Source: Bacteroidales bacterium UBA4284 (GTDB lineage: Bacteria; Bacteroidota; Bacteroidia; Bacteroidales; UBA932). From it: a stretch of 18,785 nucleotides of DNA. A program made the position numbers and the translations under genes. The stretch lies in NCBI GenBank assembly GCA_002395925.1, contig DGVM01000047.1, forward strand, positions 12,628 to 31,412, in the 5' to 3' direction. The notes under the pieces were generated by a model. The model searched no databases. It was not told the origin of the DNA and saw nothing but the letters and a program-made list of their open reading frames with translations. The number at the start of each line of letters is the position of its first letter. Position 1 is the stretch's first letter. Below are positions 14,704 to 18,785 of the stretch, piece after piece.

Positions 14704-17076
14704 CTATTCGAAGATGTAGCTGATTACGTCGTCGATAGTCTCTACGTAGTGGAAGGTGAGCCCGCGGACATAGATTTCCTTGATGTCCTCCACATCCTTG
14801 CGGTTCTCTTCGGATATTACGATGGTGTGGACTCCGGCCCGCTTTGCGGCCAGTATCTTTTCCTTGATGCCTCCCACTGGCAGTACGCGTCCTCGGAGTG
14901 TCATTTCTCCTGTCATGGCTATGCCTTTCCTGACGCACTCTCCGCGCAGGGCCGAGACCATGGAGCTGACCATGGTGATACCCGCCGACGGGCCGTCCTT
15001 GGGAGTTGCACCCTCGGGTACGTGGACATGGATGTCTTTCTCGGAGAAGGTCTTGGAATCCATCTTCGCCATCTGGGGATGGGCTTTGATGTACTGGTAG
15101 GCGATGGTGGCCGATTCTTTCATCACGTCGCCCAGGTTGCCGGTCATGGTCATGACGCCCTTCCCGTTGCTCACCGAGCTCTCTACGAAGAGGATTTCGC
15201 CTCCCATCTGAGTCCAGGCGAGGCCGGTCACGACACCGGGGGCTTCGTTGCCCTTCTGCATGTCGTGGAAATTCGTAGGCAGGCCGAGATACTCCTTGAG
15301 GTGCTCCGGTTTGATGGTTCCGGGATACTCCTGACCCAGGGCTATCTTTTTGGCAGTGACACGTGCGAGCTTTGCAATCTGCTTCTCCAGACCGCGCACG
15401 CCGCTTTCGTGGGTGTACTGGTCGATGATGGCCTTGATTCCAGCAGCGCTGACCTTGAGAGTCTTGGAGTCGAGTCCGTGCTCGCGGAGCTGCTTGGGAA
15501 GGAGGAAGTTCTTGGCGATTTCCGCCTTCTCCTCTGCGAGGTAGCCGGAAACGTTGATGAGTTCCATACGGTCGAGCAGCGCAGGCTGGACCGGCGAGAT
15601 GCTGTTGGCGGTCGTAATGAACATTACCTTGCTCAGGTCGTAGTCCAGGTCGAGGTAATTGTCGTGGAAGGTGGAGTTCTGCTCGGGATCGAGAGCCTCC
15701 AGCAGCGCCGATGACGGATCGCCCTTGAAGTCGGCTCCGAGTTTGTCGATTTCGTCGAGCACGATCACCGGGTTGGAGGTGCCGGCACGCGCGATTCCGT
15801 TGAGGATACGTCCGGGGAGGGCACCGACGTATGTTTTGCGGTGGCCGCGGATTTCGGCCTCGTCGTGCATGCCGCCGAGGGAAATCCTGACATACTTGCG
15901 TCCGAGAGCCTTGGCGATGCTCTTGCCAAGCGATGTCTTGCCCACTCCCGGAGGCCCGTAGAGGCAGAGGATGGGCGATTTCATGTTGCCCTTGAGCTTG
16001 AGCACGGCAAGGTACTCGATGATACGCTCCTTAACGGTATCGAGCCCGTAGTGGTCTTCGTCAAGGATCTGCTGGGCGTGCGAAAGGTCAAGATTGTCCT
16101 CGCTGACCTCGTCCCAGGGGAGCTGCAGCATGAAGTCGAGATAATTGTACTGGATGCTGTAGTCGGGGGAGTTGGGATTGTGCTTCTGCAGGCGGGAGAG
16201 CTCTTTTTCGAAGGCCTGCGCTATGGCCTCGGGCCACTTTTTGGCAGCGGCCCTTTCGCGGAGCTTGTCCACGTCTTCGGCATCATCCATGCCGAGCTCT
16301 TCCTGGATGGTACGGAGCTGGCTGTTGAGGTAATATTCCCTCTGCTGCTGATCGATTTCGCTTTTGACCTTCTGGTTGATGTCTTGCTTGAGCTTCATCA
16401 GCTGAACCTGCATGTCGAGTATGGCGAGCAGTTTCATGGCACGCACGCTGATGTCGTCGTACTGCAGCAGTTCCATCTTCTCGCGGAAGTTCTCGACATC
16501 GATCGTGGTGGCTACGAAATTCACCAGGAACTCGAAGTTGTCGATGGCCTTGAGTGCGCCTATGGATTCGCGGGAGCCGAGATTGGACGAACGGAGCACC
16601 TGCATGGCCTTGTCCTTGATGGCCTCGGACATGGCTTTTACGTCGGCAGATGCCGCATTGTACGCCAGCTCGCGCAGGTACAGCACACGTGCGGTTATAT
16701 AAGGGTCCATGCCTACGATGGCATCGACACGGATGCGTTTGAAGGCCTGCAGAATGGCGGTCAGCGTGCCGTCAGGCATCTCCAGGGTCTTGAGGATGCG
16801 GCAGACGGTGCCGAACTCGTAGAGGTCTTCCGCCGAGGGCTCCTCGACGGTTACGTCTTTCTGCGGCACGGCGCCGATAAAGAAATCGTGCTGCTCCGCG
16901 TCCTGGATGAGACGGATGGATTTTTCCCGCCCTATGGTGATAGGGAATACCGTTCCCGGAAACACTGCGGCGTTTCGGAGCGCCAGGATCGGGAGTACGT
17001 CGGGAAGCTGGGACTCGTCGAGCTTCGAGGATACTTCTCCTTGCACGACAGGAATAATGTTTATATCTTGCTTCAT
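14704..17076 (-). CDS. lon: ATP-dependent Lon protease
   Basis: Lon is a hexameric AAA+ Ser-Lys protease degrading misfolded and regulatory proteins in the cytoplasm. The protein is 790 residues (E. coli 784). The N-terminal substrate domain (about 25-225) opens with [21 protein letters not shown] coiled segment follows, then the AAA+ module with Walker A GPPGVGKT (374-381, Lys380), Walker [11 protein letters not shown] and TTANS sensor. The protease domain contains PKDGPSAG with Ser697 and GGIKEK with Lys740, the expected 43-residue spacing of the catalytic dyad. The ATG at 17074-17076 gives a complete N-domain. It is divergent from hup across 173 nt and converges on the pseudouridine synthase gene. 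The upstream region carries a direct repeat of ACTGACAAT next to the start. Confidence 0.97.
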
Positions 17077-17099
17077 ATTGTCAGTGTCAAATTGTCAGT
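17077..17099 (-). repeat. Direct repeat at the lon start
   Basis: On the minus strand ACTGACAAT occurs twice (17099-17091 and 17085-17077), separated by 5 nt, the second copy touching the lon ATG. A 14-nt period is not a typical helical repeat for a dimer site. It could be a small duplication or an RNA-level element in the initiation region. Confidence 0.5.
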
Positions 17100-17166
17100 A
17101 AAAGGGTAAAATCTGTCCGAATCCCTATCTGGTCAATCTCTGTGCCAAAGAAAGACTTAAAAATAT

Positions 17167-17197
17167 TTTGATTGTTAAAAATAAAGTTATAATTTTG
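17167..17197 (+). promoter_or_regulatory. hup promoter, Bacteroidota consensus
   Basis: TTTG at 17167-17170 and TAATTTTG at 17190-17197 are separated by exactly 19 nt, a full consensus match. Transcription should start near 17203, leaving a leader of about 47 nt that contains the palindrome at 17217-17228. The surroundings are strikingly AT-rich compared with the genes. Confidence 0.8.
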
Positions 17198-17216
17198 CGT
17201 TCTCAATCAGAAACAC

Positions 17217-17228
17217 GGTTAATTAACC
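17217..17228. promoter_or_regulatory. Palindrome in hup leader
   Basis: GGTTAATTAACC is a perfect 12-nt palindrome just downstream of the expected hup start point. It has no loop and is AT-rich, so a DNA-binding site is more plausible than an RNA hairpin. Autorepression is one possibility but no binder is identified. Confidence 0.4.
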
Positions 17229-17249
17229 AACTAACATATACTTAAAGAT

Positions 17250-17525
17250 ATGACAAAAGCAGAAATCGTCAGTGAAGTTGCAAAGGCAACCGGCATTGAA
17301 AAGGTAACAGTCCAGACTGTTTTCGAGGCTTCCATGGAAGCTATCAAGGGATCCGTAGTAAAGAAAGAGCCCGTGTATCTTCGTGGTTTTGGCAGCTTTA
17401 TCATCAAGCATCGCGCAACAAAGGCCGCCAGGAACATCACCAAGAAGACCACCATTACCATTCCTGAGCACGACATCCCTGCCTTCAAGCCGTCCAAGGC
17501 CTTCGTTGCCGAGCTTCAGAAATAA
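17250..17525 (+). CDS. hup: HU-family DNA-binding protein
   Basis: The protein is 91 residues, the normal HU length; HU is a dimeric nucleoid protein that bends DNA. It begins MTKAEIVSEVAKATGIEKVT and has the family signature RGFGSF at 45-50. The beta-arm reads AARNITKKTTITIPEHDIPA (59-78): where classical HU/IHF has RNP with the DNA-intercalating proline, this one has Arg61-Asn62-Ile63. Such arms are, as I recall, common in a Bacteroidota HU clade. The ATG at 17250 follows an AT-rich leader without Shine-Dalgarno. The 29-residue gene starts 17 nt after the stop and probably shares the transcript, with the terminator at 17644-17678 closing the unit. Confidence 0.94.
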   Translation: MTKAEIVSEVAKATGIEKVTVQTVFEASMEAIKGSVVKKEPVYLRGFGSFIIKHRATKAARNITKKTTITIPEHDIPAFKPSKAFVAELQK

Positions 17526-17542
17526 TTTAACATTTTTCTTAT

Positions 17543-17632
17543 ATGCCCAACGGAAAGAAGCATAAGAGGCATAAGATGGCGACGCACAAACGCAAGAAGC
17601 GTCTCCGCCTCAACAGACACAAAAAGAAATAA
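17543..17632 (+). CDS. 29-residue highly basic protein, probable small ribosomal protein (bS22/AURKAIP1-COX24-like)
   Basis: The ATG at 17543 opens a 29-codon frame. It begins MPNGKKHKRHKMATHKRKKR and its last nine residues are LRLNRHKKK, ending in TAA at 17630-17632. More than half of the residues are Lys, Arg or His. The pattern KK-K-RHK-x-x-x-HKRKKR resembles the AURKAIP1/COX24 (DUF1713) domain of mitochondrial mS38 and the actinobacterial 30S protein bS22. From memory, near-identical short proteins are widespread in Bacteroidota, often as hypothetical. It lies 17 nt after hup and just before a strong terminator, in front of RNase G. Coding status is inferred from composition, position and family resemblance. 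It is short enough to be missed by gene finders. Other small ribosomal proteins, such as bL38-type, are an alternative. Confidence 0.75.
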   Translation: MPNGKKHKRHKMATHKRKKRLRLNRHKKK

Positions 17633-17643
17633 AAAGTCGCTTT

Positions 17644-17678
17644 AGGCCCGGCGGGGGATCCGGCGGGCCTTTTGTTTT
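17644..17678 (+). terminator. Intrinsic terminator or attenuator between the small basic gene and RNase G
   Basis: AGGCCCG (17644-17650) pairs with CGGGCCT (17664-17670), with a GC-rich interior holding a GGATCC palindrome. TTTTGTTTT follows at 17670-17678. It ends 16 nt before the RNase G start at 17695, so no separate promoter fits between them. Expression of that gene must come from readthrough or from a promoter overlapping this hairpin. Confidence 0.85.
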
Positions 17679-17694
17679 ACCCTAACCGTCCCAA

Positions 17695-18785
17695 ATGGAG
17701 TCCGAAAACCAAGTCAAAGACCTTGTGGTCGACGTTGGCTCGTCCGAGGTGCGGCTGGCTCTCATGGAGAACCACCGCCTCATCGAGTACAGCAGAGAAT
17801 CGAGTCAGGGTCGCAGTTTTTCGGTGGGGGATGTATATCTTGGAAAAGTCAAGAAAATACTTCCCGCGCTGAATGCTGCTTTTGTGGACATCGGCGACAG
17901 CAAGGAAGCGTTTATCCATTATCTGGACCTGGGCCTGCATTTCGACGCATTCGACACTTTCGTGCGCGACAGCAATCCCAACCGCAATCTGCAGGAGTTT
18001 TTCTCTGGTATCAAAATAGGCACCCCGCTTGCCAAAGAGGGGCGCATCGAGGATTACCTCAAACCCGGGCAGATGATAATAGGCCAGATAGTTAAAGAAC
18101 CGATATCCACAAAGGGATCCAGACTGACAGCCGAGATTTCATTGGCAGGACGCAACATCGTGCTGCTCCCCTTCGCACAGAAGGTGAGCGTCTCCCAAAA
18201 GATTTCCTCGAAAGAGGAAAAACGCAGGCTCGAAACCCTCGTAGGCAACATCCTTCCCCGTAACTACGGTGCCATCATACGCACTGCGGCCGAGGGCAGT
18301 TCCGCTGCCGTGCTGGTAGCCGAACTCAAATCCCTCATAGAGAAGTGGGAGAGTTCCTGGAAGAAGATTTCGAGAAACAAAAGCATAGGACTGCTGTTTA
18401 CGGAGTATTCCAAAACCACCACCGTCCTCCGCGACCTCCTCAACGACAGTTTCTCCAACGTTTACGTAAACGACGAGAAAATCTATGAGGAAACTCGCCG
18501 ATACATCTCCCTCATCTCACCGGAGCAGGAAAAAATAGTCAAGCTCTACGAGGGGAAGGAACCGATTTTCGACCACTTCGAGGTCACAAGGCAGATAAAG
18601 AGTTCCTTCGGAAAGATAGTCCCTATGAAGGGTGGGGCGTACCTTGTAATCGAGACAACCGAGGCCCTCGGTGTCATCGACGTCAACAGCGGCATCCGTG
18701 CAAAGACCAACGACCAGGAAGAGAATACTTTCGAGGTGAACCGTCTGGCCGCCGAAGAAATAGCCCGCCAGCTGAGGCTGCGCGA
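17695..18785 (+). CDS. rng: Ribonuclease E/G family protein, N-terminal part (runs off right edge)
   Basis: The frame is open from the ATG at 17695 to the window end, 363 complete codons. It begins MESENQVKDLVVDVGSSEVR and has an S1 domain from about 37 (GDVYLGKVKKILPALNAAFV, DIGDSKEAFIHYLDL). The RNase E/G catalytic domain includes GIGLLFTEYS-like segment SIGLLFTEYSKTTTVLRDLL and VIDVNSG, where Asp329 aligns with the first catalytic Asp (Asp303 of E. coli RNase E), followed by NRLAAEEIARQLRLR. The second catalytic Asp and the Zn-link lie beyond the edge. RNase G/E cuts single-stranded RNA, maturing 16S rRNA and initiating mRNA decay. An insertion of about 40 residues (DTFVRDSNPNRNLQEFFSGI region) interrupts the S1 domain, as I recall for Bacteroidota members. 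RNase G is more likely than E on phylum grounds. Confidence 0.93.
   Translation, partial: MESENQVKDLVVDVGSSEVRLALMENHRLIEYSRESSQGRSFSVGDVYLGKVKKILPALNAAFVDIGDSKEAFIHYLDLGLHFDAFDTFVRDSNPNRNLQEFFSGIKIGTPLAKEGRIEDYLKPGQMIIGQIVKEPISTKGSRLTAEISLAGRNIVLLPFAQKVSVSQKISSKEEKRRLETLVGNILPRNYGAIIRTAAEGSSAAVLVAELKSLIEKWESSWKKISRNKSIGLLFTEYSKTTTVLRDLLNDSFSNVYVNDEKIYEETRRYISLISPEQEKIVKLYEGKEPIFDHFEVTRQIKSSFGKIVPMKGGAYLVIETTEALGVIDVNSGIRAKTNDQEENTFEVNRLAAEEIARQLRLR

Follow-up and report, generated by a model that had tools for sequence, protein, structure and literature searches.

The question raised by this locus is whether a frame of only 29 codons, lying between hup and rng, encodes a working protein, and if so, which one. 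The window, i.e. the whole 18,785-nucleotide stretch of DNA that was analysed, contains the features collected in Table 1. According to the original prediction, the frame specifies an extra protein of the small ribosomal subunit, of the mS38/bS22 kind. The best explanation overall is that it very probably is the gene for bS22, a supplementary protein of the 30S subunit in Bacteroidota.

Table 1. Features of the bS22 locus, with their positions in the window and the evidence for each
Feature	Position	Strand	Evidence and remarks
bS22 gene (assigned by orthology)	17543..17632	+	29 aa, MPNGKKHKRHKMATHKRKKRLRLNRHKKK; translation, PDB matches, relatives, pN/pS
hup, HU-family DNA-binding protein, before bS22	17250..17525	+	91 aa; PF00216, E 1.1e-23
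rng, ribonuclease of the Rne/Rng family, truncated where the window ends	17695..18785	+	TIGR00757, E 9.1e-91
lon protease, divergent neighbour upstream	14704..17076	-	TIGR00763, E 2.6e-278
Match to a promoter of the Bacteroidota type, TTTG-N19-TANNTTTG, before hup	17167..17197	+	pattern search
Hairpin and T-run between bS22 and rng; putative terminator or attenuator	17644..17678	+	RNA folding; not listed by a simple terminator scan

The frame runs from ATG to TAA and yields 29 residues before the stop. More than half of these had been described as Lys, Arg or His, and the translation confirmed this, with 10 Lys, 5 Arg and 4 His (19/29, 66%). Lys and Arg only make up 15/29 (52%), compared to the 55–65% positively charged residues quoted for other members (PMC10085706). 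The predicted placing of the frame, 17 nt after hup and 12 nt before a terminator, agreed with the sequence as well: the gap between the end of the hup stop and the start codon is 17 nt, and the bS22 stop is followed after 11–12 nt by a hairpin with a T-run, the outer A-U pair starting at 17644 and the G-C stem at 17645.

A sequence search of the PDB with the peptide retrieved three distinct sequences, whose alignments span the whole peptide or leave out its final residue only. The closest was chain 10 of 9i5v, named 'AURKAIP1/COX24 domain-containing protein' (E 1.4e-9, 90% identity over 29 residues), followed by chain 5 of 7jil, which carries both the names 30S S22 and 50S L38 (E 4.6e-9, 83% identity over 29 residues), and by chain V of 8fmw, named bS22 and matched over the full length of the chain (E 6.2e-4, 64% identity). 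By these identities, the full-length peptide resembles a protein that has been built as bS22 into a ribosome model, and the names of the chains bear out the kind of protein that had been proposed. Chain V of 8fmw is presumably the Borrelia bS22, the database entry itself saying only bS22, and a structure of the Flavobacterium johnsoniae ribosome with bS22 has reportedly been described by Jha et al. in 2021. A PDB profile search with eight members returned no further chains; this profile contains the three PDB sequences themselves and is therefore no independent test of the bS22 identity. No actinobacterial bS22 was present among the sequence or profile matches at E ≤ 10.

The 7jil entry is the F. 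johnsoniae ribosome (PMC9976891), and bS22 in this ribosome had already been reported, as cited in PMC10085706, while the Borrelia protein is described as closer to F. johnsoniae bS22 than to its mycobacterial counterpart (PMC10618245). A literature search for the PDB codes 9i5v, 9i5x, 9oz9 and 9p0e gave no paper containing any of them, and none of the titles and abstract beginnings among the matches listed dealt with bS22 function in Bacteroidota. As a protein of the Bacteroidota small subunit, bS22 is known and not new.

Conservation of the window bS22 was judged from relatives. A scan of genome contigs with the HU protein confirmed at least 513 relatives, of which the best 80 were kept, and in all 80 of these loci, as in the window, the frame follows hup at gaps of 8–40 nt. 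Together these 81 sequences hold 15 peptide variants. Among the 79 copies of equal length, a set that omits two 30-residue copies (L040 and L073), pN/pS was 0.08, and the variable columns at codon positions 1, 2 and 3 numbered 8, 3 and 26, of 28 each. The comparison of synonymous and non-synonymous change, which had been put forward as a check, consequently favours a gene, with most of the change at third positions, and the frame is under purifying selection. That the frame might have arisen by chance in a stretch that is basic and A-rich, as its length of only 29 codons might suggest, is refuted by its presence in 80/80 kept relatives (the best 80 of at least 513), by the pN/pS value and by the named PDB matches, leaving this reading a probability of practically nil. 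We conclude that this frame, with its 29 mostly basic residues, is a genuine gene.

It is also a gene that genome annotation easily overlooks. In an hmmscan the peptide had no match to any Pfam or NCBIfam family, and PF08213 (COX24_C, the COX24/mS38 C-terminal domain), which we take to be the former DUF1713, did not match it. When PF08213 was compared with eight bS22 members, three were matched, weakly (best E 0.17). In seven Bacteroidota genomes it never exceeded its curated cut-off, two weak matches sitting elsewhere than bS22, and in 14 control genomes there were three with a match, one of them above the cut-off. The suggested check with the DUF1713 model hence came out negative, though direct comparison finds the gene; PF08213 misses the Bacteroidota bS22 branch. 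We assign the frame to bS22 by its orthology to the modelled ribosomal protein, and not to PF08213. Among other searches, Rfam gave three matches within positions 16900–17800 of the window, all far below gathering scores, and a strict bS22 DNA pattern had no match in viral contigs.

The ribonuclease that had been noted next to the frame is an RNase E/G family enzyme, its partial protein scoring 304.8 bits and thereby falling just under the TIGR00757 cut-off of 325.95. Upstream of hup lies one of two matches in the window to the TTTG-N19-TANNTTTG pattern, compared to 0.15 expected by chance; the pattern follows the consensus known for Bacteroidota promoters. The neighbourhood was followed further in 69 wider loci (29 from the phylum draw described below and 40 fetched by position from its list), four of which (L107, L133, L162 and L163) were without the strict frame pattern. 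With flanks of approximately 1–1.5 kb, at which farther neighbours are missed, rng was located downstream on the same strand, 50–329 nt from bS22, in 33 of 65 wider loci, and HU at most 70 nt upstream in 18 of 65. The frame persists in wider loci where hup or rng is missing from the covered stretch. The order hup-bS22-rng extends beyond close relatives but is not obligatory.

The frame lies just before the hairpin with its T-run and rng, and in all 80 sequences with rng visible it is found 8–207 nt upstream of this gene, which would suit a role as leader peptide of rng, or as its translated attenuator, instead of a working protein. However, the frame varies freely at synonymous sites but conserves its amino acids, and 32 of the 65 wider loci retain it although no rng was found in the covered stretch. 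In addition, peptides nearly identical to it are modelled in ribosomes, and the structures of orthologues contradict a leader function, which makes this explanation exceedingly improbable; it was rejected in favour of bS22.

The spacer between bS22 and rng was analysed in its own right. The core CGG[GA][GA]GATCCG occupies the hairpin position in 52 of 81 sequences and was found four times elsewhere in 636 kb. In the 80 spacers bounded by a visible rng (the L059 sequence breaks off 15 nt past the bS22 stop), folding placed the core in a stable fold in 52 cases and gave another fold below -15 kcal/mol in 24, the other four being only 8–9 nt long. These four loci (L022, L026, L028 and L038), in which the start of rng follows the bS22 stop without a hairpin, suggest a tight bS22-rng operon. 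With one mismatch allowed, the hairpin and T-run pattern was encountered once each in three genomes, at bS22-rng, and was absent from a fourth. This form of the hairpin is clade-restricted, since the pattern matched in 5 of 79 genomes of the G001 family, G001 included, the other four being pattern matches alone.

Pair counts over 49 distinct hairpin sequences gave 90.6% standard pairs, compared to 85.6% in shuffles (0/500 shuffles); cells with changes on both sides numbered 30, compared to 13.5 (0/500 shuffles). Six pairs were changed on both sides, a number also reached by 123/500 shuffles, the sequences being related; that most of the core does not vary is by construction, because the 49 sequences were selected by means of it. 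Furthermore, a partly palindromic element of 24 nt that resembles GTCTGCCATTTTAGCAGTCTGCTA was observed 7–15 nt after the bS22 stop, before the hairpin. By strict pattern it is present in 14 of 81 sequences (L042, L044, L045, L047, L049, L050, L053, L057, L062, L063, L064, L067, L068 and L073). It occurs once per genome in 10/10 genomes picked as carriers, and in 0/99 genomes of a separate draw from the phylum.

The hairpin and the 24-nt element may simply represent a terminator whose sequence was inherited. It is also possible that the spacer hairpin is a control element or attenuator of rng, for which it is a candidate. More speculatively, the hairpin, in which CGG and CCG flank an invariant GRGAU loop, might form a clade-specific cis-element, joined in some relatives by the single-copy 24-nt element, that sets how much RNase E/G the hup-bS22 transcript yields; the sensor would perhaps be the nuclease or bS22 itself. 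We regard this as rather unlikely; if true, the supply of RNase E/G would be tied to ribosome assembly.

Beyond the close relatives, a phylum draw of 296 genomes around G001 gave a bS22 match at E ≤ 1 in 289, reaching E ≤ 2.4e-4 in 288 and E 0.72 in the remaining one (G252); these matches were judged by E-value, with individual inspection being partial. The anticipated conservation in relatives is thus seen in the draw as well as in the kept loci. Presence in nearly all genomes drawn is what one would sooner expect of a ribosomal protein with a housekeeping role than of a weapon, and this bears on whether the peptide could be a free nucleic-acid-binding or antimicrobial peptide, for which the ribosome is a secondary site. 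Its 66% Lys, Arg and His and its gene adjoining that of HU are compatible with such a role, as is the reported inhibition of bacterial growth and cell-free translation by externally added C. acnes bS22 (PMC10085706), but reading by eye revealed no hydrophobic stretch fit for a signal peptide in the 29 residues. A free peptide is accordingly held to be highly improbable and was rejected, the ribosomal protein bS22 being preferred.

No match at E ≤ 1 was obtained in 7 of the 296 genomes. A profile search of these seven and G252 yielded two weak matches, which were unlike bS22 once translated, and a degenerate bS22 pattern was about as frequent in the eight genomes as its reversed control, which it exceeded in two (26 vs 23 and 17 vs 16). 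Because seven genomes are without a match and the profile search was unconvincing, bS22 is not universal in the phylum. In the family of G151 (with G199 and G203), which comprises 27 genomes, a good match was observed in 3 (E ≤ 2.8e-6), a poor one in 1 (E 0.69) and none in 23. For both G151 and G199, a single contig of about 3.6 Mb makes up nearly the entire assembly, and an assembly gap is therefore an unlikely cause of the missing bS22. Natural loss of bS22 or its strong divergence, including divergence beyond detection, is possible in this family, and a lineage apparently without bS22 would provide a natural test of its function.

Prompted by a paper on mS38 (PMC6582356), the idea that bS22 goes together with translation without Shine-Dalgarno (SD) sequences was also tested, using a crude gene calling (first ATG, frames of at least 150 aa) and small samples. 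In genomes without convincing bS22, a 5-base SD word before the start was counted in 0/66 (G203), 1/67 (G231), 2/57 (G278), 3/58 (G290), 4/29 (G252), 2/21 (G295) and 0/13 (G407) genes, or 12/311 for the seven genomes together. The counts with bS22 were 0/63 (G273), 0/62 (G174), 4/57 (G034), 10/69 (G128), 0/37 (G253), 2/45 (G235), 1/60 (G285), 3/43 (G409) and 2/14 (G411), as well as 1/145 in the close loci L001–L030, or 23/595 for all bS22-bearing sets. With SD words at 3.9% both with and without bS22, no consistent link was found. The negative is not clean, because SD words exceed the control position in G290 (3 vs 0), G252 (4 vs 0) and G295 (2 vs 0), and also in the bS22-bearing G128 (10 vs 0). 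G203 and G407, whose sampled genes are without SD words, are members of the G151 family. In L001–L030, GGAG, GAGG or AGGA was present just before the start in 3/145 genes compared to 27/145 in an upstream control, which suggests avoidance of short SD-like words before starts, the loci being related and the genes not independent.

As to the role of bS22, published descriptions place the Borrelia protein in a pocket of the 16S rRNA formed by h2, h27, h44 and h45, in contact with H68 of the 23S rRNA (PMC10618245), and C. acnes bS22 between h27, h44 and h45, in contact with H67 (PMC10085706), while mycobacterial bS22 is located near the decoding centre (PMC6133939). The site near the decoding region that had been proposed is supported by this pocket of orthologues (PMC10618245), and its use in the window organism would follow by orthology. 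A plausible course is that hup and bS22 are probably co-transcribed from one promoter, the transcript probably ending mostly at the hairpin before rng. The basic peptide would then insert as a bent helix into the h2/h27/h44/h45 pocket, touch H67/H68 upon subunit joining, and in this way may stabilise the subunit interface as well as the decoding helix at its base. In this instance raw sequence thus disclosed a very short gene whose product is very probably a true ribosomal component, which the Pfam and NCBIfam models tried miss and which direct comparison finds in nearly all phylum genomes drawn. Bacteroidota ribosome inventories and gene callers should include bS22.

Among known systems, the F. 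johnsoniae bS22 (7JIL chain 5) belongs to the same phylum and shares the MP-x-GKK start, the THKRKKR core and the NRHKKK end, though five substitutions separate the two and its PDB chain has 30 residues, the window peptide being one shorter. The order hup-bS22-rng found in the window is likewise seen in part of the wider Bacteroidota loci. Chain 10 of 9i5v differs by three substitutions, and its name shows that some genomes do carry an annotation for genes of this kind. Borrelia bS22, in contrast, comes from another phylum and is reported to use a GUG start (PMC10618245). For the actinobacterial proteins of M. smegmatis and C. acnes the same 30S pocket is reported (PMC10618245, PMC10085706, PMC6133939); the C. 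acnes protein, 37% identical to that of F. johnsoniae (PMC10085706), has 33 residues, compared to 28–30 in the matched PDB chains and 29 in the window. Finally, mS38 (COX24/AURKAIP1) and eL41 are described as analogous to bS22 and as occupying an equivalent site, mS38 being longer than bS22 and eL41 a single unbent helix of 24 residues (PMC10618245), and the likeness of both to bS22 is a published structural analogy (PMC10618245, PMC10085706).
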